From Ischnura elegans (lineage: Eukaryota; Arthropoda; Insecta; Odonata; Coenagrionidae), in NCBI RefSeq assembly GCF_921293095.1, contig NC_060253.1:95249073-95313072 (forward strand): a DNA stretch of 64,000 bases, read 5' to 3'. The translations under genes were made by a program, and so were the position numbers. The notes under the pieces were generated by a model. It was not told the origin of the DNA, searched no databases, and saw only the letters and a program-made list of their open reading frames with translations. The stretch's first letter is position 1; every line of letters begins with the position of its first letter. Shown one piece after another: positions 2,466-64,000 of this stretch.

Positions 2466-4221
2466 AGAATATGTGAAATGAACTTCTTCTGCAAGTTAAA
2501 TCCAGACCATGACATCAATATTTTCAACCCAATATGCTGCATTGAGCTCCAGATTCCCGTGTGGTGACAATTATCTCGTCTTTTTGAAATTAAATTGCCT
2601 AATTGTTGGTAAATTCATTCTGGACAATTGCAAAAATGAACTGTTCTCAGAATTATGTCGTCTTCTGAGGACAATTTATGTGTAGTGACACTAAGGCTTT
2701 CATTGCCCTCAAGTGGCTGAAAAATGTATGAGGACTTAACTATCCTGATACATTCTTTTTTAATTTTCTTATCGCATGGACTTAATTTTCACCAGATTAT
2801 AATTTTAGGCCTTTGAATGTTAATAACATTAAGGGATTCATGCTTTACAGAAGGAATGCATCGAGGCATCTTATTTAATGGTTTCAAAAGTGAACCTTTC
2901 ATAATGATATGAATGTTATTTGCGATGTTGCTGTGCTTTGTGACTTTCCCTTCTCACTGTACTTATGTAAGGTACATCCTTGGCAGCTCATATGCTTGAT
3001 TTCACTTCCTTCATGTCCTTTCTTTGATAACCTTTCCATTGTGCACATTACTCAAGCTCAAATTTAAGATTCTGAAGAATTTCTTTTGTCAAAATTCCTG
3101 TCCAATGAAGCATATGATTTGCGGTGTTGTCTCACAATATTTACAGCTTCCTTTCATAGTGTTAAGAGAATGTGTAAACACAAGTTGCCTTGAAAATTGA
3201 GTGGGAAACAATCAGATCACTCTGTTGAACTATTGGTCATTTTGTGATTTTAATTTATGCATTAAAGGATAACATTACTTGGTAAAGAGAAAGTGCTTAT
3301 AAATTAAGTAACCTAGCTATTAGGGTTCTCTAAGCTGCACCAAACTATTTCTGTCACTGTTGATGCTGTTTCATCAAGTGGGAGGGGAATTACGGGGGGA
3401 GGTTTTAGAAAAATTTAGCTTTCCTGTCCAGTATACTGAACCAATAGATTCACTCTCCAGTATCCCTAATTCGAGGAATTCTATTGTCATTCATGTGGTA
3501 GGTTTGAAGTATCAATAGTGGCACCCATGTGCAGCTGAAGTGCTGTTATGAGCACTGGCTGTCTTCTTAGAGGTGCTTTCTCCCAAATATCATCTTCATA
3601 GATCTCAGAGGCATGATATGTGGTGAAATTAACCTCTGTCACATTAGCATGCCAATTAATCCACTTGATCCAGAGCAAAACTCATGAGCTTATCCCTAAA
3701 ACTGAAGGTAGAGAGCCTTGAACATTTGAAAGAGACTATGACCAAGCATATGAGGTGGTACATCATGACTGAAAATGGTCAGCTTGCTGACTGAGTTAGA
3801 TTTGCGGTGAATGGAAAGATAATGTCCTCCGTTCGATTACTAGTCTATGTGAATAATATCAATGCAATTAAACACAGACCAAGGACTGGTTGAAGGTAAA
3901 AGGAAAAAAGACGTAGTTATGCAAGATAAACTTAGAATTATATTTATGAGCTTAAAAAATTGAACCGCTTTTTAAAATTCCAAATTACTATGTAATGCAA
4001 CACAAACAAAGTTTTGATTGTTTGGCATCATCATGTTATTCTTTAACAGTGTAGTGTGGTTTTTGTAACATTCCATATCAACAAGAGAATAGAATGGAAA
4101 TCCGAGGAGTTTCCGAAGAAGACCAGATTTACGAAAAATCGATGGCTAAAGGTAAGCAATTTTGGCCCTGGGGCTACCGGTAGAAAATGGAGAACAACAA
4201 ACCTACATTCGATGCATGTGC
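2466..4221. other. Intergenic stretch, nothing recognised
   Basis: AT-rich, with no convincing coding frame, RNA gene or terminal inverted repeat that I can see. The short frames here have no recognisable motifs. Confidence 0.5.
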
Positions 4222-34600: not shown

Positions 34601-37600
34601 AAATTTAGGTGTGCACAAAGTAAAGGAGAAATTAATACCATGAAGATATAGGAGTCCAGAAGTAATTAGAGATTTTGGCATTTTTGCACTTCAAGCTCAA
34701 AAATTTTGTCATCGTTGGTCCTGGAGGAATGTCACTTATTGCATAGTGATGCACTAATCAATGCCGATTATATTTTAGAAGCATCCTTATTTGTTGGATC
34801 CTTCACTATAAAACATTGTAAAATAAATGGGTACTATACATTTATTGTCAAAGCCATTGAATCATGCTCTGAAAAGTGTGTTCATTCAGTATAGTTTTAC
34901 CCTTATTCCCACAGGATGCAGATCAAATTCGGTGTATGGCTTTCCATCCAACTGGTGATTATTTAGTTGTCGGCACCAACCACCCTGTCATGCGAGTGTA
35001 TGATGTTAACACAGCACAATGTTATGTGTGTAGTATTCCTAGTCACCAGCATGTCGCCGGACTTACATCCATAAAGTAAGCACTTATTAAGGTATTTCAT
35101 TAGATAATGATCCATACTTTTACTAAGTCTCTCTTATTAAAATGATGTTTCGATTTTTTTGTTACAACTTAAAAATGGTAACTGGTTTTGATTACTGTGT
35201 CATAATCTGTTTATCAGCACATTTCGTGGGCCAGTCAATAAATATTCAGTTTCTCATTCTTTTGTTGGCAATAATGCTGTTTACATTTGTAGTATATTTC
35301 ACTTATCTTAATTGGTATGTGAAGAATTATGTCGTTGTTTAACCATTAATGCTTATGCCTATTTTCTGCTAGGTATTCTCCAGATGCGAAAGTGTATGCT
35401 TCAGCTGGTCGTGATGGGAGTGTAAAAGTATGGGATGGTGTATCAAATCGGTGTGTCAATACTTTTTTAAAGGCTCATGATGGTGCTGAAGTTTGCTCAA
35501 TTACATTTTCAAGGAATGGGAAGGTAATTTGGAATACTGCTGCTACCTGTTTTAAATCTTGATCAAATTTATTTATTTAGAATTAGTCAAGGTATGATTT
35601 AATTTATATCCTCTATGATTAAACTTTGAAATTTCTGTGTGTGGTTAGACAGGATGCATTGTGCATCTGATAGTGCATTGTGCTCTATTTTGCTCTTTTA
35701 TATATGTACACTGTGTTTCTATTATAAACTCTTTCCTCTTGTTAGGCACCTCTTTGCCTAAAATATTGACCTTGATATTTATTCTGCTGTGGCTGTTTTC
35801 CTATGAAAAAATGTTCAAATAATTGTATTAATCCATCTGCTGTGGTATATGTCCGTCTACCTTTATATATGTAATCACATATCCATGTTGGCATATTTAT
35901 TTATTTATCAAGTTGTCCACGTACAGCATATTTGCCAGTTTACATAGCACAGTATAACAGGTATAAAGAGTACTAGCACAATTAAACATAATAAATTTAA
36001 ATAAATAACAATGCATTGAATGTAATTATATTGACCTTAAGGGTTTCTAGTAAGATAAGAAAGAGCGTGGTTTGTAAAAGTGTGGTTAGGAAAAGAGAAC
36101 GGGTCACTGTGGTCTGAAGAGAATTTATGAGGGAAGAGAGGCGAAAGAGGAGGGATCGTATGGTCAGTGACAATCTGGGAATGGGCATGTGGAGGAGAGA
36201 AAGTGTGCGTGTGGGTCTTCATGGAACTTTAAAGGTTAAATTGGAGATGAGATTGGGACAGTCTACGGCTGAGTTTAGAACGCATTAGTTTTAAATCTGA
36301 ATTGAGAATTAAATTTGGAATTTTAGGTATATACCTATAGCTATATAGAGAGTTTAGGCAAAACAGTATCAGCTGGCATATCAGAAAGATGAGGAACAAT
36401 GCACTTAACTATTTCAGTGAACAAATTGATCACACTCTTTAGGGCCAAAATATTGGATGGGGCTGAAATGGTCCAAATGGGGGAGCAATACATTATAAGG
36501 GGAATGACAATAGTTGAAAAACATATGCGTAGTGCAAGCAGGTCTGTAATTTCTTAGAAGTGGTAGGAGGGACATAGCTTTGTTTTTACTTTTTTTAATA
36601 TGCTCACAGTAATTCAATTTTTGATCCATTAAAACACCTAAGTCTTTGATGGTGAAGACTCAACTGAGAAAAAGGGAGTTTAAACTGTACCTGAAATCAT
36701 AAGGGGACTTTTTTTTTTAGCAAGAAGGAAATTATGTTGCATTTATTAGTGTTTGGGTGGAGTTTCCAGGTGTTGCACCACTCTGATACCTTGTTCAATG
36801 CAGCCTGTAGGTCATAGACATTGTTAATTTGCTTAAAAATTTTGCTGTCATCAGCGTAAAAAAGGGTGTGAGCTTGAGAGGGATGGACAAGGAAGGCCAG
36901 ATCATCAATAAAAAGATTAAATAGATATGGCCTGAGAACACTTCCCTTTGGTACACCAGATGTTGTGGGTGACCAATGGGATGAGCAGCCAGGAAGTATT
37001 ACCCGCTATAATCTATTGCTGAGGAAAGAGTCTACTAGGTTTAGAAAATTGCCATGCAATTTAAAGCGATGAGAGAGTTTATGAAGGAGAAGAGTGTGGC
37101 ATAGAGAGTCGAAGCCTTTTGAGAAATCTAAGAATATTGCATCAAGTTAAGCTTTATTGGAGATGGAAACAACTGCATGGTGCTGAAAAAGAGCTAAGTT
37201 GGTGAGGCAGGAGCGTCCTGGAAGGAAGCCATGCTGATTATTTGATAAAAAAGGAGTAGTGCAGCCTGTTGAGAATGATCCTTTCACAAACTGAAGATAG
37301 TATCGGAAGTAATGATATTGGGCAGTTTGAGCGTTCATCTTTAGGACCATTTTTATGTATGGGAATGATATTGGCAATTTTCCATTGGGAAGGGAAGGTG
37401 CCTAAGGAAAAGCAACGGTTCAGGAGGAGGCTCAATAGAAGAGAGAGGGAGGAGGCACAGTGTCTAATGAGTTTGGGGCTCATACCATCGGGACCAGGCC
37501 ACAATGGAGAGGGATTTTGCAGAGATATTCAAATACTTCTCTAGGATATGTGATAAAGTTAGATGGACAATGGTCACGAATTGGCACGGGGAAGTGTTCA

Positions 37601-43600: not shown

Positions 43601-45048
43601 GTCGTTAAAACTATAGTGGCTTCTTAAATGTTTAGTTTTGGTGGAACTTCTAGTTTTTTGTTATGTGACTTGGTAACTAACAATTGTTAGCGAGGAGAGT
43701 CGGTGGCCAGGAAACTACATATATCATTTGCTGTTGCGTCAAATCATCAGATACTCGTGGAAAGGAAGTTTATAATTCATGTAACATGCTGCCAACTTCA
43801 CTATTTTGTCTCATTGAAATCCATGTTTGGGGCAAAACTTTAAATTTTATGGGTCAAGGATTTGGGATAATTGTTAAATAAAGGTATTGATTAAGATTTA
43901 TGTTTTGAACAATGAAGGAATAGGTCGAGTAGGTATGGAAACTGATTTCATCAATATCTTGTATGATGTTGGGCACGAAAATGTAAGTTGGCATCAACTT
44001 TCATTATCAGCTGTGAAGCAAGTGATTTTTTTACTAAAAGCTCATTCCTGCTTAATTATGACCCCCAGAAGGTTTCCAATGAGTTAGTCATGCATCTGGA
44101 TAATGTGGTTACAATTTATTTAATCAGAGAATATAGTTTGGAGAATGCATGTTCTCATCTATCTTGCTTGATTGCCTAGTAAAAATTAAATTGTATATTA
44201 ATTTTATCCTTCACCTTGCTATCTTTGAATTCTGGAGTAAGAACTACCCTCTGGTTAATTACATCCCAGGTGCTAGGCAGATAGGCCTTGGAGTAACTTG
44301 TAGCACAGAGAAGTCAAATTTCATCTAAAAGCATATGCACCACTCAACTTTTTGGGAACTTTTTTGACCCATATTACTGTTTAGTGATTAAATTAAGAAA
44401 GAAGAACTTTGTACTTTCACTGTTTAGTGCCTAAAATTCAGAAAATGTAACAATTACACAGGTAAAACTCCCCTGATCCTGGGCTACCCATAGCAGATTT
44501 TTTAGCGATTATGTGATCAAAAATTTTGGTTTAGTTTTATCTAGATTGTCATATAAGTATTAATGTTTTAAGTGCTTGCCATGGGATATGCATCTACTTT
44601 TAGATAAGTATGTCTTTGCTGTAGGTCATTCGAACAGGCATTTCCTGAATTGGAAACAGCAAGAAAAACGGTGTACATGAAAACAACTTCACCACAAGGA
44701 AACACCATATCATACCCATTTAAAATGGAAAAATAGCCCAAGCATATCTAACCTCCTTGCTCAAACAATGTCGAGTTTTATTGACTGTGGGATTCAGAAT
44801 CTGGGGCCAAATGCTGTAATTAGGATTGGAAAAAATTCATGAAAATCATGTGAATGTTTAGAATATTCAGTACATATCTTATTTTTTAAATGATGTTCAT
44901 AATTCTTTATTAACCAGTTTCCTTTTAATTTTCAGGGCATAATGGTCCAGTCAGATATTTAGTTCATTCTCCTAATGCACCTGCATTCCTAACATGCTCG
45001 GATGATTTCCGTGCTAGATTTTGGTATCGAAGGACACCAACTCATTAA
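28693..45048 (+). CDS. CSTF1: Cleavage stimulation factor subunit 1, CstF-50 (9 exons, complete)
   Basis: Exons 28693-28766, 28903-29030, 29172-29377, 31157-31390, 34915-35075, 35373-35523, 38200-38293, 38504-38635 and 44936-45048 join in phase to 430 residues (human 431). The N-terminal homodimerisation region reads [20 protein letters not shown]40 repeats follow, with landmarks [20 protein letters not shown] (about 104-123), [96 protein letters not shown] and [14 protein letters not shown] near the C-terminus. CstF-50 is the nuclear CstF subunit that, with CstF-64 and CstF-77, binds the GU-rich element for pre-mRNA 3'-end cleavage (family knowledge). Introns 3, 4, 6 and 8 are swollen by transposons; the reading frame is intact. 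Confidence 0.97.
30315..30562 (+). mobile_element. tRNA-derived SINE in CSTF1 intron 3
   Basis: The head GCGTGGTAGGCTAGAGTGCT (A-box-like) and GGGTCCTGGGTTCAAATGCA (B-box-like) are spaced as in a tRNA gene, followed by an unrelated body and a GAGTGAGTGATT tail. It is not a functional tRNA, since no acceptor stem closes. Confidence 0.7.
31735..33100 (-). mobile_element. Mariner-family transposon, degraded, in CSTF1 intron 4
   Basis: Minus-strand frames give ordered mariner transposase pieces: [20 protein letters not shown] and FNEGQTNVH (the helix-turn-helix end), [34 protein letters not shown] (with the first catalytic Asp context DET), [44 protein letters not shown], and after the inserted [12 protein letters not shown] and [13 protein letters not shown]. 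Many frameshifts and stops. Terminal repeats are not clear. Confidence 0.85.
31845..32212. mobile_element. hAT-type MITE inserted in the mariner copy
   Basis: Ends CAAGGGCGCCGAC and, inverted, CAGTGGCGCTGAC, with 8-bp flanks GGTGTGTA (31837-31844) and GGTGTGTG (32213-32220). Removing the element joins mariner NHTP to YSPD across the duplicated target. G/C-rich subterminal runs; no coding. Confidence 0.88.
33105..34145 (-). mobile_element. 5'-truncated Jockey-like LINE 3' end in CSTF1 intron 4
   Basis: Minus-strand [16 protein letters not shown] (RT motif) leads, after a frame break, into a 233-residue open frame (33936-33235) reading [20 protein letters not shown], then [13 protein letters not shown] and [12 protein letters not shown], the usual C-terminal thumb region of insect jockey-type polyproteins. 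The 3' end carries a TTA-repeat tail (33107-33121). Only the last quarter of the element is present. Confidence 0.85.
35897..37830 (-). mobile_element. Jockey/CR1-group LINE, inverted copy in CSTF1 intron 6
   Basis: Minus-strand frames contain [77 protein letters not shown] and [10 protein letters not shown], in the same order and with the same wording as the element at 10125-12160. The 3' end has a TAAA-type tail (near 35897-35910) and a shared GTAAACTGGC motif. Broken by several stops and shifts. Confidence 0.85.
40340..40640. mobile_element. Penelope-type 3'-end remnants, one folded back
   Basis: A minus-strand segment has the GATGATGGGTCTGTGAGCC-GAAACGC motif (40381-40420). At about 40525-40605 CAACCGGTTTC and TTTTCAGGTCTTTA face TAAAGACCTGAAAATATCGA and AACCGGTTGAG, a head-to-head pair like those at 4948 and 13931. 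Family identity of this last pair is inferred from the motif and geometry only. Confidence 0.5.
40381..40420 (-). ncRNA. Hammerhead-ribozyme-like motif in a retroelement remnant
   Basis: On the minus strand GTAC is followed by CAGATGA (canonical core CTGATGA, one change), a GGGTC/GAGCC stem with one mismatch and a TGT loop, GAAAC, GC, then ATC (an NUH cleavage triplet) and a second GTAC able to pair with the first. Penelope-like elements are known to carry hammerhead motifs. Activity is doubtful given the core change. Confidence 0.4.
43093..43256. repeat. Two-level foldback hairpin in CSTF1 intron 8
   Basis: The outer arms GCAGTGAAGTTTTCTCGGG (43093-) and its inverse (to 43256) extend imperfectly for about 39 bp. 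The inner arms GGATTCAGGAATCCAA (43134-43149) and the exact inverse (43152-43167) are separated by only two bases. Confidence 0.85.
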
Positions 45049-46580: not shown

Positions 46581-46985
46581 CATGTTTCCTCATCCATTAG
46601 TAGTTGTCCGGTCACATATTTTTACGTGTTTTTGTATTATGATTTGTCACTCCCCTCTATGGAATTAATTTGGACTGTTTGACCAAATTATTTTCTTGCA
46701 AAAAATAAATTAACACATAAAATGAAATATACATTAAATACAATAATAATAAAAATGCATTAACCCTCATATGGATTATCTGCGCCTTAGCGGCGCTCGT
46801 GGTTTTAAAAGTGGTGTAAAAATTTTCCATTCCAATGGATCATTTTGAAATTTTCAGTAGTCAATTTTTTGCGCCTTTTTTGTCTACATATAAAATTTTG
46901 TTTGCATAGTGTTAATAGTTTACATTTTATTGGCCTCTAATGAAAAAAGTTACGTCGTTGGATTTACGGCGCCGCTGCGGCGCTC

Positions 46986-47621
46986 AGTATTTCCTCGTCG
47001 CTACGTCGGGGACTGCACTCTCAGTGTTAATTTCAAAGCAATTATGTTTCGTATAAAATGCTATAATCTATTTACAATATTATTATTTAATTTTCTAAAC
47101 TTTATAAACAAAATTAAATTGTTAAACAAAAGGAAAATATAACTATACCAATTTTGCTTTCTATTTTCGCTAGGAATCATAATGTTTGCCTCGATATAAT
47201 GTTCATTGACAAAACTTCATCTTTTCAAAACAATAATTCATAGAATCTCATGGCTAGCCAAAGTTGTTTTTTCCTGGGCCTCCTACTTAGTGTTGCTTGG
47301 GCCGAGAATTTCCTCGTCGCTACGTCAGGGACGGCACTCTGAACGCTAATGTCAAAGCAATTATGTTTCGTATGAAATGCTTTAATCTATTTACAATATT
47401 ATTATTTAATTTTTTTAAACTTATAAACCAAGTGAAATTGTTTAACAAAAGGAAAATGTTACAATATCAATTATGCTTTCTCTTTTAGCTAAGAATCATT
47501 ATGTTTACCTTGTTATAATGTTCATTGACAAAACTTCATCTTTTTGCAAGAATTATTCATTGAAACTCATGGCTAAGCTAGGTTGTTTGTTCCATGGCTT
47601 CCGTCTTAGTTTTCTTGGGCA
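46986..47621 (+). repeat. Tandem duplication of about 315 bp inside the composite element
   Basis: TTTCCTCGTCGCTACGTC at about 46989 recurs at about 47307. Similarity continues through AAGCAATTATGTTTCGTAT, ATCTATTTACAATATTATTA and TAATGTTCATTGACAAAACT to the TTGGGC end of each unit. Roughly 15% divergence, so an old duplication. Confidence 0.88.
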
Positions 47622-48835
47622 CCTTCTCCGCTCCGCGTCCACGTAACTGCCGTGGTCATAGTCACCTTTGAGTAAATCCCAGTGTTAGTCTGTTTAGAAT
47701 TACACCAAGCAGCAATTCTAAGAAAATTTTAACACAATGCATTATCCGAATTCGTAGAATAATGCTTCCTCACCGTCGTGTGAATATTTCTCGTTGAATG
47801 AGCAACTGTAACTTGCCAGGAGATTCAGAGGTTTCACCGACTACCGTGAAGAACACATTGCATGGTCACTGTTACATGTCTTGTACCTCTAATTCGAAAA
47901 TATTCCTTTGCGCCTACGATAGTCAATGCAAAATTGCTGACGTTTATATAATTACCGATGACGCGACAGTTTACCATTGGGGTGAAATCAAGATTACTAC
48001 CCAACTAATTGTGTGATAGAAAATAATTTCTTTTTCCTGACCATTAGTTCAGTATTTACATGGTAAAAATCGTTTCATGATGAATAGGAGAATAGACAAT
48101 TTACCGTGAAGCGAAAATTTGTAATTCTCGTTTCTTTGTGTACTCAAATGCACAGATATTTTATTCATTGGGATTTTACTAACGTGAAGGGGTGAGTGAG
48201 GAAGAGAAAGGAGAAGGAATGCCAGGTTGGTTGTTTTGAGGTGAAGGGGTGGTAGTGTGTCGACTGCCAAGGATCAGGGAATACCCAGATCGTTAGGCCA
48301 GGTAAGAGTAGAAAACCTTTATCGCGAAAAAGGTTGGGAGTGCAAGGAGACAATTAGATACAATAGCCTGCTTTTTCTTTATCTTTCCATCGCTGCATGA
48401 GGGACAGGGAACCAAAGCCTTGTCAAAACGCCTCGCGGTGGCCCTCCCTTCATTCCAAGAAGGTCCAGCTCGGGTGGGTCATTAGGGTGGAGAGAAGTTC
48501 AATCAACTTTTGTGGGCGGGGGGAAGAAGGCGGTGAATGACGAATAAGGAAGCTTAGTGGGAAGGTATGGATGGATAGTCTCAATGGTCTCAATGTTTGG
48601 GTCAGTGAAACGCTACGGAAAGAAAAGGTGAGGGAAGTCCTCCCAGCTTGAAGGTATTTTTTTCACCCCAGAACATTCTTCCTTCAGTCCCTCACGTAGA
48701 GCTGGACGAAAGAAAATAGGCGCCTGTTTCTTCTTTCCTACCACCTATAACCCATACTTCTATTATTTTCTTGGATTTCCCAACAATCCAGGAGTAAAAC
48801 CTCGTCTGGTACACTCCCAATCACATTTAAGGCCG

Positions 48836-49037
48836 GGACACACATGACCGCACCGAGCCCGCGCCGACACACGGCCGAGTGTTGGACGTGATACGGCGAG
48901 AAAGGAAAACAATGCATTCAAACGCGTAGGGACACACACCACCGCACCGTGCCCGCACCGTCACCGTGCTTGGAGACCGCGCCGTCACCGACTAGTTCAG
49001 TTTACTTTTTGACGGTGACGGTGCGGGCTCGTGCAAC
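48836..49037 (+). promoter_or_regulatory. GC-rich repeat block before the MADF gene, probable Harbinger terminus
   Basis: GGCCGGGACACACATGACCG begins a GC-rich block in AT-rich surroundings, like a Harbinger terminal repeat after a TTTAA flank. CACCGCACCG and CCGTCACCG motifs repeat. GCCCGCACCGTCACCGT (48951-48967) and its exact inverse (49012-49028) form a 17-bp hairpin ending 9 nt before the MADF ATG. These could be binding sites for the element's own proteins. A matching right terminus was not found. Confidence 0.5.
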
Positions 49038-51874
49038 ATGGAGAGCGAGAAACTTATTGAAGAAGTGCGGAAATTCCCAGTTCTGTATGACCAAACTGTG
49101 GATAATTATCGGAATGTCGAGTACAAGGAAAGGGTGTGGAAAATGATTTCCGAGAAACTGAAAGTATCAGGTATGTCACATTTTTATATTCTTTCATTTC
49201 GTTATACAGAGTGTTTATTTACCGTGTATAGTGCATGTACAAGTTTGCAACAGTTTCTACATTGGTCAAACATCTCAGTACTTAATGAATAGGAATTCAC
49301 AACTCAAATCATCAATAAAAAATAAAACACAGTTATGTGCCCTTGCACAACCCAGATTATTCAATAGCCATTATTTCGACTTTAGTAATACCAAAATTTT
49401 AGAAAATGAATTAATTTTAGCGAAGCGGTTGATAAAAGAAATTATATATATTTCAAAAAAATGAAAATTGTTGTAATAAAAGATCGGATATTGATAATTT
49501 GAGTATAATTTATTTTTACTTTATTGATTTTCTCTGAATGTAACCATGGTCTACAAAATAATCATTGTTACCATAAACAAACAAACACCACAAATTAAGT
49601 CACGTTGAACTCCTGTGTATCCCTTTTCTCAATTACTTAATACTGAATTTGTCGTTTTATTTTATTATAAACTAAAAACAGTATTGTAACTTTATATATT
49701 TATGATTCCAAATTTTACTATCATATCATATTTAATTCATCCATATGTTTATCTCATTTTCTTTTTCATAACTAAGCCCTTTAGAAGATATACAATTATA
49801 TCGAAGCGTTGGCTAAATTTGGTTTTTATTTATTTCGACCTAAACTCCAAGAACTCACAAAAATATACATAAATAAGTTTAAGAAGAGGTCAAGAAAAAA
49901 TAAAAATTTAACAATAATAATTAACGCACTAACACAGTTGAATTTCCAAAGTTGAAAGTTGTAGTTCAAAATAATATCGCTACTTGTACGTTAAAGTCCA
50001 ATGTCATTTGGCGGTAAATCTTGGGCGTCTTATATTCCCAGTGCAGCCCTCACTTGCCACTCTACACTTCCAACTGGAGAGTTAAAGAAATCCTTGAGTT
50101 TTTCTCGAACAGCAAACGCTTCTCCTGTTGACCCTCCTCGTAGACGGGGTAGGTCTTGAAAATTGCAGGCCCTGCTAGGGAGGCTGGTGCTCTCAGTCCC
50201 ATCTTTGCTTTCATTTAATGCTGACATGTTAATTCCTTCATTATGTCGTATGAAATTGTGGAGGACGCAAGCAGCTAGTACTAAAGTCGTAATGTTTTCA
50301 GGATTTCCTTGCAACCGTCGGGAGAAAATGCGAAACTTCTGTACCAAAATTCCAAACGCATTTTCAGAAATCCTCCTAGCTCGGCTTAGACGGTAGTTAA
50401 ATATCCTTTTGTCATCTGTCAAACCTTTTCCAGGATAAGGTCTCATCATATATCTTTTAAGAGGAAAGGCTTCATCACCTACAATGACCATTGGCAGTTA
50501 GAAATTTGTTCCAGGTAGTGCTCCACCCCTTGGAACATTGAGCTGGCCATGCTCCAGAGCTCTTCCAAAATTCGAGTTTAAAAAAATACCTCCATCCGAG
50601 TTTTTCCCGTAAGCTCCGACGTCTACCACAATGAAGTTGTAGCATGGGTCAACTAAGGCTAGAAGTACAATGGAGTATGAGTGTTTGTAATTCCAGTATA
50701 GACTGCCTGATAACTTCGGAGCTTGAATAGGGTAGTTTCCTTCATCAAAGAAAACGAAAGGCATTGATTGCGATTCGTTACCCACCATTAGTGTAATCAT
50801 AATACACAAATTATTTGGTTTTTGAAATACCGGTTTAGACGAATGGCAAGGGTCAAATTTTATCCTCATTTGAAAAAGGCCAGATTGGCGCCCATGCGAT
50901 TCCACTCCACGTGACGTCACAGGGACCTAGTTTCTACACGAGAGGATAGGAGTTACACATCGTCTGAGGTTACCAATGCATGCATGAGGCACAGAGCTCA
51001 GGGAAACATGTCTTAATAATCACCTACTAAAACTGGCTAAGGTCGGAAAGTTTTCGTCGTTTGATAAGGTATTAATAAACCTTTTTTAAGCCAAGCGCTA
51101 CCTTTCAGCAAGGTACTCAGCTACCCGCTGGCAGCCTGCGACGTATCAGCGCTAAGCCTCGCCTCAAGGTCACCTCACCGGGCGGGAGGGGGAACCAGAA
51201 ATACGGCGTACGGAGATATTTCCCGGCATTCATACTTGAGCGTCGCGTTTTCGCGCGCTTGAAAATTTTCACTTTTCATTTAATCGCGAAAAATAGATAT
51301 TGTCATTTTAAAATCTTAAAGCGTGAAATACGTACTCCAGGAGTAATAATCTTTCGATTAAGGCAATAAAAAATAATAGGAAACCACCCTATTGTAACAT
51401 GCTTCCCATCCAAGGCTCCAATACAGTTGGGGAACTGCCACTTTTCCCAAAACTCAGATGCCACAGTGTTCCATTTTGCTTCATCTGGCACAGGCATGAC
51501 CTCCTTTTGAATAACGTCCACTATTGCTTTACATGTACTGTGAATGATAGCAGCTACAGTCGATCTGCCCAGCCTATAGCTGAATGAAATTGTCTTGAAA
51601 GTATCCCCAGTTGCAAGGAACCTGAAAAAAGATATTTTGATAGATTTTAACATAAAATTATTATTCTAAAAGAATATTTTTTTTAGGAGGGCCGGAAGAG
51701 TGCAGGAAAAGGTGGGCCTCGTTTCGAGATCAGTTCCGTCGAACTCTACAAAAGAGGAAGACAAAATCGGGACAAGCTGCTGCCAAAAAAAATAAGTACA
51801 AGTACGAAGACATTTTGGAATTTTTACTGCATATCAGAAAAAATATTTCAAACAACCATTACACACAAAATTAA
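49038..51874 (+). CDS. MADF-domain DNA-binding protein (2 exons), likely Harbinger accessory gene
   Basis: Exon 1 (49038-49170) ends at GTATGTC and exon 2 (51687-51874) follows a T-run and AG; they join in phase to 106 residues. The protein reads SEKLIEEVRKFPVLYDQTVD, YKERVWKMISEKLKVSG, then across the splice GPEECRKRWASFRDQFRRTL and YKYEDILEFLLHIRKN: a full MADF (Myb/SANT-like in Adf-1) fold with its conserved Trp, CRKRW and FL-HL positions. Such proteins partner Harbinger transposases in binding element ends (family knowledge). The frame is intact although the 2.5-kb intron contains an antisense transposase. It could instead be a domesticated host gene. Splicing is inferred. Confidence 0.75.
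50030..51621 (-). pseudogene. Harbinger (PIF/HARBI1-type) DDE transposase, split by a MITE
   Basis: Minus strand. 51621-51400 reads RFLATGDTFKTISFSYRLGR through FPNCIGALDGKHV (first catalytic Asp). After an insertion the frame resumes at about 50735 as IQAPKLSGSLYWNYKHSYSI, ALVDPCYNFIVVDVGAYGKN-SDGGIF (second Asp region), GDEAFPLKRYMMRPYP (catalytic Glu) and FGILVQKFRIFSRRLQ, and ends QVRAALGI. One in-frame stop (50498-50500) lies just before GDEAF. An acceptor TTTTTTCAG precedes RFLATG, so a first exon is expected upstream but was not found. Inactive. Confidence 0.9.
50735..51400 (-). mobile_element. Short TIR element (copy 2) inside the Harbinger transposase
   Basis: Same element as 13548-14417, opposite strand, without the Penelope palindrome. 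Ends AATAGGGTGGTTTCCT and, inverted, AATAGGGTAGTTTCC. It separates transposase residues GKHV from IQAPK. Confidence 0.8.
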
Positions 51875-52489
51875 AACTTTCATTCGAAAATAACAGACAA
51901 AGGGATCAGAAATAGAAAGCATTACGGCAAAAAATGGAAAAGAATGCAGCGTTCAAGATTTTTTGTTATAACTTCCACAAGAATGGGTTTAATCTAGCAA
52001 AGCGTGGTGAGAAATAAAGATAGTAGATGTATTTACCATTATCAATCAGAAAATTTGTAAATTCAGGCTAACTTTGAAAGATAATAGCAAAAAATGACGC
52101 GGCGCCGCTGCGGCGCCGAAAATCCAACGACGTAACTAAATTTGTAAATCCATATGAGGGTTAATTTGTTCGGCATTTAATTGCTTGTCGGCATTAATTT
52201 GTTGTCGGCATTTAATTATTTGTCGGCATTTATTTGTTGTCGGCATTAATTTATTGTCGGCATTAATTTGTTGACGGCATTAATTTGTTGTCAGCATTAA
52301 TTTGTTGTCGGAATTTAATTCTTTGTCGGCATTTATTTCATGTCGGCATTTAATTTGTGGTCGGCATTAATTTGTGGCAGGCATTTAATTTGTTGTCGGC
52401 ATTAAATTTTTTGTCGGAATTAATTTGTTGACGGCATTTAATTTGTTGTCGGCATTTAATTTGTTGTCGGCATTTTTTTGTTGTCGGCA

Positions 52490-53121
52490 TTTAATTTGTT
52501 GTCGGCATTAATTTGTTGTAGGCATTTAATTTGTTGTCGTAATTTAATTTGTTGTCGGCATTTAATTTGTTGTCGGCATAGATTTGTTGTCGCCATTCAT
52601 TTTTTGTCGGCATATAATTATTTGTCGGCATTCAATTGGTTGTCGGCATTTAATTTGTTGTAAGAATAATTTTGTTGTCGGCATTAATTTGTTGTCGGCA
52701 TTAATTTTTTGTCGTCATTTAATTTGTTGTCGGCATTAAATTTAATGTCGACATTTAATTTGTTGTTGGCATTAATTTGTTGTTGACATTTATTTGTTGT
52801 CGTCATTTAATTTGTTGTCGGCATTAATTTGTTGTAGGCATTTAATTTGTTGTCGTAATTTAATTTGTTGTCGGCATTTAATTTGTTGTCGGCATAGATT
52901 TGTTGTCGCCATTCATTTTTTGTCGGCATATAATTATTTGTCGGCATTCAATTGGTTGTCGGCATTTAATTTGTTGTAAGAATAATTTTGTTGTCGGCAT
53001 TAATTTGTTGTCGGCATTAATTTTTTGTCGTCATTTAATTTGTTGTCGGCATTTAATTTAATGTCGGCATTTAATTTGTTGTTGGCATTAATTTGTTGTT
53101 GATATTAATTTGTTGTCGTCA
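52490..53121 (+). repeat. 316-bp duplication within the array
   Basis: A variant-unit pattern including GCATAGATTTGTTGTCGCC, GCATATAATTATTTG and GTAAGAATAATTTTG is repeated with an exact offset of 316 bp (52490-52805 and 52806-53121), with a few base changes. Confidence 0.88.
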
Positions 53122-53520
53122 TTTAATTTGTTGTAGGCATTAATTTGTTGTAGGCATTAATTTGTTGTCGGCATTAATTTGTTGTCGGCATTAATTTGTT
53201 ATCGGCATTAATTTGTTGACGGCATTTATTTGTTGTCTGCATGTATTTGATGTAGTCATTTAATTTGATGCCGGCATTTAATTATTTGTCGGCATTTATT
53301 TTGTTGACGTCATTTAATTTGTTGTCGGCATTTAGTTTTTTTTCGGCATTTAATTTGTTGTCGTCATTTAATTTGTTGTCCGCATTTAATTATTTGTCGG
53401 CATTTAATTTATTGTCGGCATTAATTTGTTGTCGGCATTTCATTTGTGATCGGCATTAGTTTGTTGTCGGCATTTAATTTGTTGTCGGCATAAATTTGTT
53501 GTAGGCATTTAATTTGTTGT

Positions 53521-56500
53521 CGGCATTAAATTTGTTGCCGGCATTAATTTGTTGTAGGCATTAATTTGCTGTCGGATTTATTTTATTGTCGGCATTTAAT
53601 TTGTTGTTGGCATTAATTTGTTGTAGGCATTTAATTTGTTGTCGGCATTTAATTTGTTATCGGCATTTAATTTGTTGTCGGCATTAATTTGCTGTAGGCA
53701 TTAATTTGTGTTCGGCATTAATTTATTTTCGGCATTAATTTGTTGTCGGCATTAATTTGTACGTCATTTAATTTGTTGTCGTCATTTAATTTGTTGTCGT
53801 CATTTAATTTGTTGTCCGGCATTTAATTATTTGTCGGCATTTAATTTGTTGTCGGCATTAATTTGTTGTCGGCATTTAATTTGATGTCGGCATTAATTTG
53901 TTGTAGGCATTAATTTGCTGTCGTCATTTAATTTGTTGTCTTTATTTAATTTTTTGTCGTCATTTAATTTTTTGTCGTCATTTAATTTGTTGTCGGCATT
54001 AATTTGATGTTGACATTAATTTGTTATCGTCATTTATTTTGTTGACGGCATTTAATTATTTGTCGGCATTTAATTTATTGTCGGCATTAATTTGTTGTAG
54101 GCATTAATTTGCTGACGGCATAAATTTCTTGTCGGCATTTATTTGTTGTCCTCATTTAATTTGTTGTCGGCATTTAATTTAATGTCGGCATTTAATTTGT
54201 TGTTGGTATTATTTTGTTGTTGACATAAATTTGTTGTCGTCATTTAATTTGTGTTCGGCATTTAATTATTTGTCGACATTTAATTTGTTGTCGGCATTAA
54301 TTTTTTGTAGGCATTAATTTGCTGTCGGCATTTAATTTGTTGTCGGCATTAATTTGTTGTCGTTATTAATTTGTTGTCGGCATTTAATTAGTTGTCGGCA
54401 TTAATTTGTTGTCGGCATTTAATTTACTGCCGGCATTAATTTGTTGTAGGCTTTATTTTGTTGTCGGCATTTAATTTGTTGTCGGCATTTAATTTGTTGT
54501 CGGCATTAATTTGTTGTAGGCATTAATTTGCTGTCGTCGTTAATTTGTTGTCGGAATTAATTTGTTGTCGCCATTCATTTATTGTCGTCATTTAATTTGT
54601 TGACGGCATTTAATTTTATGTCGGCATTTAATTTGTTGTCGGCATAAATTTGTTGTTCACATTAATTTGTCGTCGTCATTTAATTTGTAGTAGGCATTTA
54701 ATTATTTGTCGGCTTTTAATTTGTTGTCGGCATTAATTTGCTGTAGGCATTAATATGCTGTCGGCATTAATTTCTTGTCGGCATCAATTTGTTGTCGTCA
54801 TTTAATTTGTTATTGGCATTTACTTTAATGTCGGAATTTAATTTGTTTCCGGCATTAATTTGTTCTTGACATTAATTTGTCGTCATTTAATTTGTTGTCG
54901 TCATTTAATTTGTTGTCGGCATTTAATTATTTTTCGGCATTTAATTTGTTGTCGGCATTAATTTGTTGAAGGCATTAATTTGTTGTAGGCATTTAATTTG
55001 TTGTCGGCATTTAATTTTTTGTCGGCATTTAATTTGTTGTCGTCATTTAATTTGCTTCTGCATTTAATTTAATGTCGGCATTTAATTTGTTGTCGGCGTT
55101 AATTTGTTGTTGACATTAATTTGTTGTCGTCATTTAATTTGTTGTTGGCATTTAATTATTTGTCGGCATTTAATTTGTTGTCGGCATTAATTTGTTGTAG
55201 GCATTAATTTGCTGTCGGCATTAATTTGTTGTCGGCATTAATTTGTTGTCGTCATTTAATTTGTTGTCGGCATTTAATTTAATGTCGACATTTAATTTGT
55301 TGTTGGCATTAATTTGTTGTTGACATTTATTTGTTGTCGACATTCAATTTGTTGTCGGCATTCAATTATTTGTCGGCATTTAATTTGTTGTCGGCATTAA
55401 TTTATTGTAGGCATTAATTTCCTGTCGGCATTAATTTGATGTCGGCATTAATTTGTTGTCGGCATTAATTTGTTGTCGGCATTTAATTTGTTGTCGGCAT
55501 TTAATTTGTTGTCGGCTTTTATTTGTTGTGGGCATTTAAAATATTGCCAGCATTTAATTTTTTGATGGCATTAAATTTGTTGTCGGCATTAATTTGTTGT
55601 CGTCATTTAATTTGTTGTTGGCATTCAATTTAATGTCGGCATTTAATTTGTTGTCGGCATTAATTTGTTGTAGACATTAATTTGTTGTCGGCATTTAATT
55701 TGTTGTAGGCATTAATTTCCTGTCGGCATTAATTTGTTGTCGGCATTAATTTGTTGTCGGCATTAATTTTTTGTCGGCATTAAATTTGTTGTCGTAATTT
55801 AATTTGCTGTCGGCATTAATTTCTTGTCGTCATTTAATTTGTTGTTGGCATTTAATTTTTTTGTCGGCTTTAATTTGTTGTCGGCATTTAATTTGTTGCC
55901 GGCATTAAATTTGTTGTCTTCATTTTATTTGCTGTCGGCATTAATTTGTTGTCGTCATTTAATTTGGTGTCGGCATTAATTTGTTGTCGGAATTAATTTG
56001 TTGTCGGCATTAATTTGTTGTCGGCATTTAATTTGTTGTGGGCATTAATTTGTTGTAGGCATTTAATTTGCTGTAGGCATTTAATTTGTTGTCGGCATTA
56101 AATTTGTTGTCGTCATTTTATTTGCTGTCGGCATTAATTTGTTGTCGTCATTTAATTTGGTGTCGGCATTAATTTGTTGTCGGCATTAATTTGTTGTCGG
56201 CATTTAATTTGTTGTGGGCATTAATTTGTTGTAGGCTTTTAATTTGCTGTCGGCATTAATTTGTTGTCGGCATTTAATTTGTTGTCGGTATTAATTATTG
56301 TTGACATTAATTTGTTGTCGGCATTAATTTGTTCGGAATAAAATTGCTTGTCGGCATTAATTTGGTGTCGGCATTTAATTATTTGTCGGCCTTTATTTGT
56401 TGTCGGCATTAATTTATTGTCGGCATTAATTTGTTGATGGCATTAATTTGTTGTCAGCATTAATTTGTTTTGGGCATTTAATTCCTTGTCGGCATTTATT

Positions 56501-57588
56501 TGATGTTGGCAATTAATTTGTGGTCGGCATTAATTTGTGTCCGGCATTTAATTTGTTGTCGGCATTAAATTTTTTTGTCGGCATTAATTTGTGTCCAGCT
56601 TTTAATTTCTTGTCGGCATTAATTTTTGTCCGGCATTTAATTTGTTGTCGACATTAAATTTTTTTGTTGGCATTAATTTGCTGTCGGCATTTAATTTGTT
56701 GTTGGCATTAATTGGTGTCGGCATAAAATTTGTTGTCGTCATTTAATTTGGTGTCGACATTAATTTGTTGTCGTCATTTAATTTGCTGTCGGCATTAATT
56801 TGTTGTCGGCATTTAATTTGTTGTCGGCATTAATTTGTTGTCGGCATTAATTTTTTGTAGGCATTAATTTGTTGTCGGCATTTAATTTCCTGTCGGCATT
56901 AATTTGTTGTCGGCATTAATTTGTGTTCGGCATTTAATTTGTTGTCGGCATTAATTTGTTGTTGACAATAATTTTCTTTCGGCATTATTTGTTCGGCATA
57001 TAATTTGTTTTCGGCATTAATTTGTTCGGCATTTAATTATTTGTCGGCATTTATTTGTTGTTGGCATTAATTTTTTGTCGGCATTAATTTGTTGACGGCA
57101 TTAATTTGTTTTCAGCATTAATTTGTTGTCGGCATTTAATTCGTTGTCGGCATTTAATTTTTGTTCCGCATAAATTTGCTGTCGGCATTTATTTGTTGTC
57201 GGCATTTAATTTGTTGTCGGCATTTATTTGTGTCCGGCATTTAATTTGTTGTCGGCATTGAATTTTTTTGTCGGCATTAATTTGTTGTCGGCATTTAATT
57301 TGTTGTCGGCATTAATTTGTGTCCGGTATTTAATTTGTTGTCGGCATTAAATTTTTATGTCGGCATTTATTTGTTGTCGGCATTAATTTATTGTCGGCAT
57401 TAATTTGTGTCCGGCATTTAATTTGTTGTCGGCATTTAATTTTTTTGTCGGCATTAATTTGTTGTCGGCATTTAATTTGTTTTCGGCATTAATTTGTTGT
57501 CGGCATAAAATTTGTTGTCGTCATTTAATTTGCTGTCGGCATTAATTTGTTGTCGTCATTTAATTTGTTGTCGGCATTAATTTGTTGT
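53521..57588 (+). repeat. Higher-order copy A of the array (about 4.07 kb)
   Basis: Begins with the rare variant TTTGTTGCCGGC. Landmarks (TTGTCTTTATTTAA at 53936, CGGAATAAAATTGCTTG at 56334, GTCCGGTATTTAATTTG at 57321) recur in copy B at offsets of 4068, then 4085 bp. Confidence 0.9.
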
Positions 57589-60500
57589 CGGCATTAAATT
57601 TGTTGCCGGCATTAATTTGTTGTAGGCATTAATTTGCTGTCGGATTTATTTTATTGTCGGCATTTAATTTGTTGTTGGCATTAATTTGTTGTAGGCATTT
57701 AATTTGTTGTCGGCATTTAATTTGTTATCGGCATTTAATTTGTTGTCGGCATTAATTTGCTGTAGGCATTAATTTGTGTTCGGCATTAATTTATTTTCGG
57801 CATTAATTTGTTGTCGGCATTAATTTGTACGTCATTTAATTTGTTGTCGTCATTTAATTTGTTGTCGTCATTTAATTTGTTGTCCGGCATTTAATTATTT
57901 GTCGGCATTTAATTTGTTGTCGGCATTAATTTGTTGTCGGCATTTAATTTGATGTCGGCATTAATTTGTTGTAGGCATTAATTTGCTGTCGTCATTTAAT
58001 TTGTTGTCTTTATTTAATTTTTTGTCGTCATTTAATTTTTTGTCGTCATTTAATTTGTTGTCGGCATTAATTTGATGTTGACATTAATTTGTTATCGTCA
58101 TTTATTTTGTTGACGGCATTTAATTATTTGTCGGCATTTAATTTATTGTCGGCATTAATTTGTTGTAGGCATTAATTTGCTGACGGCATAAATTTCTTGT
58201 CGGCATTTATTTGTTGTCCTCATTTAATTTGTTGTCGGCATTTAATTTAATGTCGGCATTTAATTTGTTGTTGGTATTATTTTGTTGTTGACATAAATTT
58301 GTTGTCGTCATTTAATTTGTGTTCGGCATTTAATTATTTGTCGACATTTAATTTGTTGTCGGCATTAATTTTTTGTAGGCATTAATTTGCTGTCGGCATT
58401 TAATTTGTTGTCGGCATTAATTTGTTGTCGTTATTAATTTGTTGTCGGCATTTAATTAGTTGTCGGCATTAATTTGTTGTCGGCATTTAATTTACTGCCG
58501 GCATTAATTTGTTGTAGGCTTTATTTTGTTGTCGGCATTTAATTTGTTGTCGGCATTTAATTTGTTGTCGGCATTAATTTGTTGTAGGCATTAATTTGCT
58601 GTCGTCATTAATTTGTTGTCGGAATTAATTTGTTGTCGCCATTCATTTATTGTCGTCATTTAATTTGTTGACGGCATTTAATTTTATGTCGGCATTTAAT
58701 TTGTTGTCGGCATAAATTTGTTGTTCACATTAATTTGTCGTCGTCATTTAATTTGTAGTAGGCATTTAATTATTTGTCGGCTTTTAATTTGTTGTCGGCA
58801 TTAATTTGCTGTAGGCATTAATATGCTGTCGGCATTAATTTCTTGTCGGCATCAATTTGTTGTCGTCATTTAATTTGTTATTGGCATTTTCTTTAATGTC
58901 GGAATTTAATTTGTTTCCGGCATTAATTTGTTCTTGACATTAATTTGTCGTCATTTAATTTGTTGTCGTCATTTAATTTGTTGTCGGCATTTAATTATTT
59001 TTCGGCATTTAATTTGTTGTCGGCATTAATTTGTTGAAGGCATTAATTTGTTGTAGGCATTTAATTTGTTGTCGGCATTTAATTTTTTGTCGGCATTTAA
59101 TTTGTTGTCGTCATTTAATTTGCTTCTGCATTTAATTTAATGTCGGCATTTAATTTGTTGTCGGCGTTAATTTGTTGTTGACATTAATTTGTTGTCGTCA
59201 TTTAATTTGTTGTTGGCATTTAATTATTTGTCGGCATTTAATTTGTTGTCGGCATTAATTTGTTGTAGGCATTAATTTGCTGTCGGCATTAATTTGTTGT
59301 CGGCATTAATTTGTTGTCGTCATTTAATTTGTTGTCGGCATTTAATTTAATGTCGACATTTAATTTGTTGTTGGCATTAATTTGTTGTTGACATTTATTT
59401 GTTGTCGACATTCAATTTGTTGTCGGCATTCAATTATTTGTCGGCATTTAATTTGTTGTCGGCATTAATTTATTGTAGGCATTAATTTCCTGTCGGCATT
59501 AATTTGATGTCGGCATTAATTTGTTGTCGGCATTAATTTGTTGTCGGCATTTAATTTGTTGTCGGCATTTAATTTGTTGTCGGCTTTTATTTGTTGTGGG
59601 CATTTAAAATATTGCCAGCATTTAATTTTTTGATGGCATTTAATTTGTTGTCGGCATTAATTTGTTGTCGTCATTTAATTTGTTGTTGGCATTCAATTTA
59701 ATGTCGGCATTTAATTTGTTGTCGGCATTAATTTGTTGTAGACATTAATTTGTTGTCGGCATTTAATTTGTTGTAGGCATTAATTTGCTGTCGGCATTAA
59801 TTTGTTGTCGGCATTAATTTGTTGACGGCATTAATTTTTTGTCGGCATTAAATTTGTTGTCGTAATTTAATTTGCTGTCGGCATTAATTTCTTGTCGTCA
59901 TTTAATTTGTTGTTGGCATTTAATTTTTTTGTCGGCTTTAATTTGTTGTCGGCATTTAATTTGTTGTCGGCATTAAATTTGTTGTCTTCATTTTATTTGC
60001 TGTCGGCATTAATTTGTTGTCGTCATTTAATTTGGTGTCGGCATTAATTTGTTGTCGGAATTAATTTGTTGTCGGCATTAATTTGTTGTCGGCATTTAAT
60101 TTGTTGTGGGCATTAATTTGTTGTAGGCATTTAATTTGCTGTCGGCATTAATATGTTGTCGGCATTTTATTTGTTGTCGGCATTAAATTTGTTGTCGTCA
60201 TTTTATTTGCTGTCGGCATTAATTTGTTGTCGTCATTTAATTTGGTGTCGGCATTAATTTGTTGTCGGCATTAATTTGTTGTCGGCATTTAATTTGTTGT
60301 GGGCATTAATTTGTTGTAGGCATTTAATTTGCTGTCGGCATTAATTTGTTGTCGGCATTCAATTTGTTGTCGGTATTAATTATTGTTGACATTAATTTGT
60401 TGTCGGCATTAATTTGTTCGGAATAAAATTGCTTGTCGGCATTAATTTGGTGTCGGCATTTAATTATTTGTCGGCCTTTATTTGTTGTCGGCATTAATTT

Positions 60501-61690
60501 ATTGTCGGCATTAATTTGTTGATGGCATTAATTTGTTGTCAGCATTAATTTGTTTTGGGCATTTAATTCCTTGTCGGCATTTATTTGATGTTGGCATTTA
60601 ATTTGTGGTCGGCATTAATTTGTGTCCGGCATTTAATTTGTTGTCGGCATTAAATTTTTTTGTCGGCATTAATTTGTGTCCAGCTTTTAATTTCTTGTCG
60701 GCATTAATTTTTGTCCGGCATTTAATTTGTTGTCGACATTAAATTTTTTTGTTGGCATTAATTTGCTGTCGGCATTTAATTTGTTGTTGGCATTAATTGG
60801 TGTCGGCATAAAATTTGTTGTCGTCATTTAATTTGGTGTCGACATTAATTTGTTGTCGTCATTTAATTTGCTGTCGGCATTAATTTGTTGTCGGCATTTA
60901 ATTTGTTGTCGGCATTAATTTGTTGTCGGCATTAATTTTTTGTAGGCATTAATTTGTTGTCGGCATTTAATTTCCTGTCGGCATTAATTTGTTGTCGGCA
61001 TTAATTTGTTGTCGGCATTTAATTTGTTGTCGGCATTAATTTGTTGTTGACAATAATTTTCTTTCGGCATTATTTGTTCGGCATATAATTTGTTTTCGGC
61101 ATTAATTTGTTCGGCATTTAATTATTTGTCGGCATTTATTTGTTGTTGGCATTAATTTTTTGTCGGCATTAATTTGTTGACGGCATTAATTTGTTTTCAG
61201 CATTAATTTGTTGTCGGCATTTAATTCCTTGTCGGCATTTAATTTTTGTTCCGCATAAATTTGCTGTCGGCATTTATTTGTTGTCGGCATTTAATTTGTT
61301 GTCGGCATTTATTTGTGTCCGGCATTTAATTTGTTGTCGGCATTGAATTTTTTTGTCGGCATTAATTTGTTGTCGGCATTTAATTTGTTGTCGGCATTAA
61401 TTTGTGTCCGGTATTTAATTTGTTGTCGGCATTAAATTTTTTTGTCGGCATTTATTTGTTGTCGGCATTAATTTATTGTCGGCATTAATTTGTGTCCGGC
61501 ATTTAATTTGTAGTCGGCATTTAATTTTTTTGTCGGCATTAATTTGTTGTCGGCATTTAATTTGTTTTCGGCATTAATTTGTTGTCGGCATTAAATTTGT
61601 TGTCGTCATTTAATTTGCTGTCGGCATTAATTTGTTGTCGTCATTTAATTTGTTGTCGGCATTAATTTGTTGTCGGCATTAAATTTGTTT
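57589..61690 (+). repeat. Higher-order copy B of the array (about 4.09 kb)
   Basis: Nearly identical to copy A unit by unit. The offset rises from 4068 to 4085, meaning one extra 17-bp unit was gained (or lost in A) between about 58000 and 60400. Near 59800 an additional GACGGCATTAATTT unit is visible. Confidence 0.9.
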
Positions 61691-61820
61691 TCGTCATTTA
61701 ATTTCCTGTCGGCATTAATTTGTTCTCCTCATTTAATTTGTTGTCGGCATTAATTTGTTGTCGGCATTAATTTGTTGTCGGCATTAAATTTATTGTCGTC
61801 ATTAAATTTGTTGTCGGCAT

Positions 61821-62378
61821 TAATCTATAAAAATATTGATATTTGTGAATGACTGACTCCCACCCCACTATATACCATTGTATTTTTTTATGGCCTCATA
61901 GTTTGTGCCATAAACATCACATGTACTTTGTTGGTAATTGCGTTAAAGGAAAATGCGGTACTGTGACAGAAAACCGATTTCAAAGCATTAGGAAAACAAA
62001 ATTAGGAGGTAGCTACAAAGAGACTTATTCCTGATTGTTATTATTAATATTTTCGAGAAAGTATTTCAAAAATTAATCTATTTGTGAGTTCTAACACTGC
62101 CGTTATAATCGTGGAAATAAATACATTCTGAATCTGTCTGATCTACAGTCTATCTCTCTAAAAAAAGACCGAATTGTATCCGAAAAAACATATTTTTTAT
62201 GAAGTAAATATTATATATGGGCATTAAATGAATACGCCAGAGCTAACGAATGCTGCGTTGCCACGTCTTGCGCTCTAAACTTTGCTTCCCGGTAACCAGC
62301 GCAGGCCGGGCCCCGTTTGGCAACATGGCATTGATAGAAGTTGTTGACATTCACAAATATCAATATTTTTACAGATTA
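61821..62378. mobile_element. 558-bp sequence bounded by 31-bp inverted repeats, at the array end
   Basis: Left TAATCTATAAAAATATTG (continuing to 61851) and the inverse of the right end (62348-62378) agree at 30 of 31 positions. No coding and no clear target duplication; the outer base context GCAT on the left belongs to the minisatellite. Probably a MITE. Confidence 0.7.
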
Positions 62379-64000
62379 TGTATCATAGAGAAATGGCAAA
62401 TAAATTAAGAAGTGTTTCTATCAATTTTATTTATTCTTTCGGGGTAAACTGTAGGACTACATAGTGTTCAAACATTTTCGTTATTTTACAACAAAATATG
62501 CGTTATAAAAATACGCAAAAGCCATTTCATTAATTTAAATTAATTTTTGTAACTTATTGTGGAAGATGAATGTTGCAGACGAGGTAGTTCTCCCTAGGTT
62601 GGGTGGCAAAGTTTATGAGGTTGACAAAACGGCTAATTTTTCGGTGCGCGGAGTCATTTATTGCACTGGCGTGTCCACATTTTTGAATTTTTCATAAAGA
62701 GAAAAATAAATTAGAATTTAAAATAAAATTTCCTTTAAAATGACGATGTATTAATTATTATGGCATGCACTGAAGTCCAGATGAAAATTTGCAAAGTACA
62801 GCGGCACATCATTTTGATGCAGACAGTAATTGTAAGGGAAAAAGTTCGTGTGGGCAGTGGTACTTTAATGTTCAGAATCTCAGAGCGTCAGAAAAAGTGA
62901 TCATAAAAGAAATGAGGCCTTCGAGACGTGGTGATGGATGCTGAAAATGAAACGGACGGACAGGGTGAGAATTACATTGAAGAATAGGAGGAGAACGGAC
63001 ACTAAGGGTCACTGTACATCAAAGAAGAAGAAGAAGAGGGTGGAATGGCCTAATATACAAACACAGAAATCATATGGGAAATATAATGGAAGGAAAAATT
63101 GGTGGGAAAGTCGCAAGGGACGAGTAGCCAAGGCAGATCAAGAGGAATGCCGAAGAGACTCAGGGTGGTGAAAGTAGTGGCTTGGGGTGGAAAGAAATGG
63201 AGGACTGCAGTATGTAGTTCGAATATTAGGATAGCAATAGTATGCATGTGTGTAAGTGGCAACCACATGTGGTGCCATCATATTTTGTATTGTTGCCATG
63301 GAGGCCTCGATGTTTATGTGTCTTAGTCAGAGACTGGGATCGTCTGAAAGGGCTCCAACGATATGATCGTTGGATTTTTCTCTTTTATAGAAAAATCTTC
63401 CAAAATCGTTGGCACAACGAATTATGGCCGCTTTCATAGTGGCGAAGGTTTTTCTCTATCCCACCCTTCCTACCCCACTCCTTGAAGGCGTCGTTGGCCT
63501 CCTATCGCGGCGGCGCACAGTGGGCTGAAATCGAAAAAAGCTGGACAAAACCTCGAAAATGGTTTTTTTGAGTATGGAAATTGAAACTTTGCACAGTTGT
63601 TGCCAACACATTAGTGCATTTTTTGACGCAAAATATTTTTCTTAGGCTAATTTTTTATATAAAATACATAGCCTCAAAATTGAACAAATTTGGCGGAAAT
63701 TGCCCGCTTTGAATTTTTTTCGATATTCAGCATGTTTAAACTAATGTCACACCTTTAGTAGTAATTCAATAGCAACAAAAATTTATAAATTTGTTAAACG
63801 GTTTGTTATCATCGATTACCATCAACTTTCATGACTTAGTTGTTGTATTTGTGACCAATACGATACAAAATGGCGGACCCTGTTTTTCGTCAAATTTTTG
63901 TGTTTATGTAGGATTTTAAAAAAAGGATCACCGAGTTACCTCGAGATATTTACACCACATATACAACAAAGTATATAGATTATGATAATCGGAAGTACAG
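62379..64000. other. Right flank, no gene recognised
   Basis: AT-rich. A purine-rich low-complexity stretch (about 62880-63180) produces short frames. From about 63528 CAGTGGGCTGAAATCG may open another transposon running off the window, but no second end can be seen. Confidence 0.4.

Follow-up and report, generated by a model that had tools for sequence, protein, structure and literature searches.

The window analysed here, a 64,000-bp stretch of chromosome 8 of the odonate Ischnura elegans (C8:95249073-95313072), contains a 9.66-kb minisatellite array of 17/18-bp units in which blocks of whole units have been duplicated in tandem. The initial annotation, made from the sequence alone, had set the array at 52163-61820 and described units that differ in length by a single T, a 316-bp block and a block of about 4.07 kb; all of these are recovered, with Tandem Repeats Finder placing the array at 52161-61821/61824. 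The features of the array are as follows (window coordinates).

52161..61824, + strand: whole minisatellite array (Tandem Repeats Finder, with the end at 61821 or 61824; unit decomposition; null tests)
52488..53119, + strand: 316-bp tandem duplication (52488-52803 and 52804-53119; similarity runs, alignment)
53509..57576, + strand: first copy of the 4.07-kb block (offset 4068 bp, equal to 233 units)
57577..61661, + strand: second copy of the 4.07-kb block, longer by one 17-bp unit
55920..56236, + strand: exact repeats of 69-71 bp at offsets of 193 and 176 bp, in the first 4-kb copy

Units and block duplications of the array

Decomposition of 52172-61815 yields 552 units of 161 distinct types, 39 of which are found only once; 251 units are 17 bp long, 247 are 18 bp, and the remaining 54 measure 14-16 or 19 bp. 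The consensus is GGCATT(T)AATTTGTTGTC, the bracketed T accounting for the two main lengths, and individual units depart from it by a mean of 1.44 edits, with GGCATTAATTTGTTGTC (65 units) and GGCATTTAATTTGTTGTC (54 units) being the most frequent types. The base autocorrelation of the array reaches 0.600 at a lag of 17 bp and 0.716 at a lag of 4068 bp, against maxima of 0.349 (lags 10-39) and 0.357 (lags 3900-4199) among 100 first-order Markov simulations. When units 233 places apart are compared, the unit identity is 0.442, whereas 200 unit shuffles peaked at 0.073 (lags 1-299). Since the lag-17 and lag-233-unit identities exceed all null maxima, the periodicity is far above chance, which is thereby excluded. 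The 17s and 18s succeed each other near-equally (neighbour counts of 125/118/114/113, compared without a formal test), and a 35-bp dimer register was accordingly rejected. The composition of the array is strongly strand-asymmetric. It contains no stop-to-stop frame of at least 85 amino acids, ruling out a coding array, and an Rfam search of the window at gathering thresholds gave zero matches, against a structured RNA. No seed unit for the array was found elsewhere in the window at up to three substitutions (substitutions only).

The two copies of the 4.07-kb block are nearly identical over their whole length: 53509-56074 corresponds to 57577-60142 at an offset of 4068 bp (6 mismatches in 2566 bp), and 56084-57604 to 60169-61689 at an offset of 4085 bp (9 mismatches in 1521 bp), with the gap from the additional 17-bp unit near 60140-60156 in the second copy, whose strong likeness to the first extends to ~61689. 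Aligned globally, 53509-57576 and 57577-61689 differ by 17 substitutions in 4068 aligned bases, with 45 gap columns made up of the one 17-bp insertion and 28 unpartnered end bases. Beyond the block borders, identity at the same offset falls to the background level of the array, namely ~88% of aligned bases on the left and ~85% on the right, where 1.35 kb and ~0.14 kb of array, respectively, lie outside the two copies. The 316-bp block is likewise a single tandem duplication, with 4 differences in 316 bp and an exact core of 250 bp; in alternative registers, 6 of 316 and 7 of 334 bases differ. Within both 4-kb copies, a scan for internal repeats (offsets of 150-400 bp, runs of at least 60 bp) found only one set, with exact runs of 69-93 bp, viz., the repeats at 55920-56236 and their counterparts at 59988-60345 in the second copy (offsets 210 and 193).

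The variant units do act as bar codes, and the order of events can be partly read. Point variants common to both 4-kb copies predate the duplication, as had been proposed; the exact repeats at offsets of 176-210 bp are also older than the 4-kb event because they are present at matching places in both copies. The proposed nesting of three scales does not hold: the 316-bp pair ends at 53119, wholly to the left of the 4.07-kb block that starts at 53509. Because the two blocks lie side by side, the suggested succession of 316 bp followed by 4 kb cannot be read from nesting, and the divergence of the copies (4-6 in 316 against 17 in 4068) hints only weakly that the 316-bp event might be the older.

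Related arrays and shared flanks

A search of the genome (1,722,721,009 bases in 110 contigs) for the unit, prompted by the question in the initial annotation whether it is dispersed, identified several further 17/18-bp arrays on chromosome 8, all on the same strand, at 8.96-9.00 Mb and 95.52-95.555 Mb, as well as a likely 21-bp relative on other chromosomes. The 17/18-bp arrays thus fall into two clusters with 86 Mb between them. A double-unit pattern matched 159 times on the forward strand and 0 times on the reverse; among the 100 listed in contig order, all are on chromosome 8, with 78 at 8.961-8.998 Mb and 22 in the window, while counting directly puts 38 in the window and 24 at 95.518-95.540 Mb, leaving ~19 of the 159 without individual placement. 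A three-unit pattern matched 18 times, in each case on the forward strand of chromosome 8, including 95.550-95.555 Mb, and a 36-base pattern with up to three mismatches gave 358 forward and 0 reverse matches, with chromosome 8 accounting for all 100 among the matches listed. On the contig of 118.12 Mb, these arrays are ~9 and 22.6-22.8 Mb away from an end and so do not occupy the chromosome-end position of telomeric or subtelomeric repeats. The pieces at 95.518 and 95.534 Mb are divided by a non-LTR (long terminal repeat) retrotransposon (C8:95528001-95533900) with an (AAT)n tail and open frames of 540 codons (cut at the start of the stretch) and 1179 codons. Each of its joints shows the same ATTTAATTTGTT, which would fit a target duplication, though nearly the same letters occur in every standard unit; the two pieces were probably once a single array. 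Beside the 95.518-Mb array, C8:95514724-95517198 holds a tandem repeat with a period of 173 bp that is related to DNA at 8.95 Mb.

Homogenisation in four array pieces was compared by the best matches of their 360-bp pieces, with the 9-Mb array represented by 8.6 kb. The median within-array identity is 0.994 for the present array (52 pieces), 0.965 for the 9-Mb array (46), 0.964 for the piece A3a (49), and 0.900 for A3b (31), whereas the between-array medians are 0.869-0.892 overall and 0.883-0.889 for the present array against the other three. Similarity within arrays is hence clearly above that between arrays in three of the four. The commonest block offsets vary by array (4068/4085, 1759/1793, 1505/1558, and 1190, the last being a weak signal).

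The clusters at 9 and 95 Mb have flanking blocks in common, here termed X and Y. Two features at the right edge of the array bear on them.

61821..61851, + strand: junction piece, an inverted copy of 62348-62378 (30/31 identical)
61853..63516, + strand: flanking block X, with full or partial copies on chromosome 8 at 9.00, 8.68, 8.96, and 9.06 Mb (90-98% identity)

Block X is 96.4% identical to DNA that follows the 9.0-Mb array on its right after a 1.2-kb stretch of other sequence; from 62074 onward it is also found at 8.677 and 9.064 Mb, and among scored matches its whole length occurs on chromosome 8 only. At 8.961 Mb the array begins inside X at a shared AATTTAA, where three other X copies (L030, L031, and the window) continue, and this X, truncated at 62715, stands on the left side of its array. 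Block Y lies to the left of the 95.518-Mb array and again at 8.955 Mb, ~5 kb to the left of the 8.961-Mb array. Both X and Y hold high-copy dispersed sequence. The junction piece in forward orientation (up to five substitutions) matches only loci overlapping this right edge; the inner copy at 62348-62378 recurs in other loci with X, the 9.0-Mb locus (L030, L047) excepted. The other X copies examined lack such a short inverted copy of sequence from 0.5 kb away, which as a templated junction would fit replication-based repair.

Arrays of a 21-bp unit with the consensus ATTTAAATTGTTGTCGTTGTC occur on contigs C12 (~53 kb) and C6 (matches across ~110 kb), with further matches on C1, C3, C4, C7, C8 (21.67 Mb), and C10, i.e., at one or two sites per chromosome where listed. 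Alignment of the 18-bp and 21-bp consensus sequences scores 13; none of 4000 shuffles and 2 of 4000 Markov sequences attained this value. The score for the 17-bp form, set against no null, is 11; with the 18-bp form, shuffles reached 12. A kinship of the two units is probable rather than proven, the pair having been picked by the search. Nine of ten 21-bp loci fall in the outer 37% of relative end-to-middle distance (Kolmogorov-Smirnov p = 0.0035), for a partial list (100 of 192 matches listed; 40 of 40 with a stricter pattern) and a tendency noticed before the test. A strictly outer position was rejected, given a locus near mid-chromosome at C12:43.3 Mb. The very long 21-bp arrays lie at C6:102.93-103.04 Mb (L023-L028) and C12:85353040-85406672 (L016-L022); the latter switches strand near 85356235 and 85406475, and the former is adjoined by a 5-kb array of an ~8-bp unit, AAAAAGGA (L023, C6:102928598-102933550).

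The left flank

Upstream of the array are a gene and a transposon.

44929..45045, + strand: last coding exon of a CstF1-like WD40 gene (match to cleavage stimulation factor subunit 1)
46764..52160, no strand assigned: TTAA-flanked transposon with 14-bp inverted ends CCCTCATATGGATT, abutting the first array unit

Two pieces of the + strand WD40 gene, 31034-31432 and 44929-45045, match residues 55-142 and 322-357 of the 358-residue CstF1 chain, and two more WD40-like pieces lie between them; in one search, designed and coatomer propellers rank high too, as is usual for WD40 repeats. An identity with THOC3 was rejected, as the best matches of the genome to the THOC3 model are on C2 and the two window pieces match CstF1. 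Because the last exon ends at 45045, 7.1 kb before the start of the array, the array is apparently intergenic. A reverse transcriptase fragment (RVT_1) is present on the minus strand at 36700-37005.

The TTAA stop at the right end of the transposon is also seen in all seven relatives of this end examined. Its stretch 48830-51825 carries Harbinger-type genes with matches to DDE_Tnp_4 and MADF. This stretch is no simple nested insertion because the relatives carry ~450 other bases in its place. A 319-bp tandem pair (85% matching) is found at 46989-47620 inside the element. The sequence to its left ends in GCA before the TTAA, such that an empty site would continue into the first unit; these three bases weakly suggest that the element may have landed within that unit.

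Origin of the array

The array family is real, carries block duplications, and is ordinary in kind. We consider it very likely that this chromosome-8 minisatellite was enlarged by homology-dependent unequal copying and spread by segmental duplication, with no need to invoke a function. The sequence itself shows that the 17/18-bp units differ by point changes and that blocks of whole units were copied in tandem, with the repeats at offsets of ~193 bp arising before the 4.07-kb event. The 316-bp event is one more tandem block copying, to which the sequence assigns no rank. Although unit lengths of 11-24 bp were permitted in the decomposition, each of the 552 units measures 14-19 bp, and no out-of-phase joint was observed. 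The 4.07-kb offset amounts to 233 units, and the indel between the copies is one 17-bp unit. Because the unit phase is kept across every joint of the array, we infer that the copying was homology-dependent and might have proceeded via unequal exchange between sister chromatids or homologues, repair synthesis, or slippage by whole units. The spread between the 9- and 95-Mb clusters could have involved segmental duplication or replication-based template switching.

Several points weigh against this account. Joints that keep the phase fail to tell unequal crossover apart from gene conversion or slippage, and the array is known from one assembly, which affords no sight of polymorphism or, hence, of ongoing exchange. 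The shared flanks could stem from duplications unrelated to movement of the satellite, with X and Y both including high-copy dispersed sequence. Homogenisation is also uneven because the within-array similarity of A3b hardly exceeds its similarity to other arrays (0.878-0.892).

Among the alternatives, the least improbable, though still unlikely, is that the array is an internal tandem repeat of a Helitron-like element or a miniature inverted-repeat transposable element spreading on chromosome 8. The recurrence of X and Y, with their dispersed sequence, beside several arrays would be in line with this, but the X copies at 8.677 and 9.064 Mb have no array within the ~1.5-kb flanks examined, X lies to the right of two arrays only and is cut on the left side of the 8.96-Mb array, and the left edges differ in all four arrays compared, one of them being a retrotransposon tail. 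A transposon-borne array was rejected for want of common two-sided ends among the arrays compared, the 95.55-Mb array not being among them.

Slightly less credible is that the 4.07-kb block is an assembly artefact, i.e., a false haplotype duplication or a wrong join. Tandem arrays are difficult to assemble, and the 0.42% divergence of the copies would be within the allelic range. However, the copies are joined in register and are separated by 17 substitutions and a one-unit indel, which argues against a trivial artefact; kilobase-scale blocks also occur in other arrays of the family, and the assembly was built from PacBio Sequel II data and has a contig N50 of 13.1 Mb (PMC9975421).

We deem it rather more doubtful still that the array is functional, for instance by giving rise to a transcribed repeat RNA or by serving in structure or pairing on a chromosome without a point centromere. 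The strand asymmetry, the wholly forward matches of the two search patterns (159 and 358), and the tendency of the 21-bp relatives toward chromosome ends speak for such a role, whereas the absence of Rfam matches in the window and the provisos attached to the 21-bp loci, viz., the mid-chromosome locus, the partial list, and the post hoc test, speak against it; moreover, a single orientation is possible by chance, given few independent arrays. The least plausible of all is an extension of this idea, in which the 17/18- and 21-bp arrays would be one family marking a few, mostly outer sites per chromosome, in one orientation on chromosome 8, and serving pairing or structure in the lack of a typical centromere.

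Minisatellites have units of roughly 10-60 bp, and the 17/18-bp unit falls in this range. The 9.66-kb array is also within the span of ~0.5-30 kb given for minisatellite arrays in PMC8122249. The array resembles the variable minisatellites with variant-repeat maps (PMC2897807) in its short unit, kilobase length, readable variant map, and multi-unit duplications, and differs from them in being known from one assembly, in that its unit was found on one chromosome only, and in its blocks of up to 4 kb. It is also reminiscent of higher-order-repeat satellite DNA (PMC8122249) in that its blocks are 99.6% alike over aligned bases, far more so than its units (17 substitutions in 4068 against 1.44 edits per unit), and in that most of the arrays compared are homogenised. 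In contrast to such satellites, whose block is repeated many times, both the 4.07-kb and the 316-bp blocks are present twice, and no centromeric placement is claimed for the array. With two copies only, the 4.07-kb block points to one duplication event and not to a homogenised higher-order array. No paper on Ischnura satellites was found among the open-access papers listed, as judged by titles and the starts of abstracts.

The locus offers a clean, partly orderable record of the block-wise growth of a short-unit array, and also shows how an array family reaches two places on one chromosome. Without altering any general view, it can serve as a marker and provides a test case for the evolution of such arrays.

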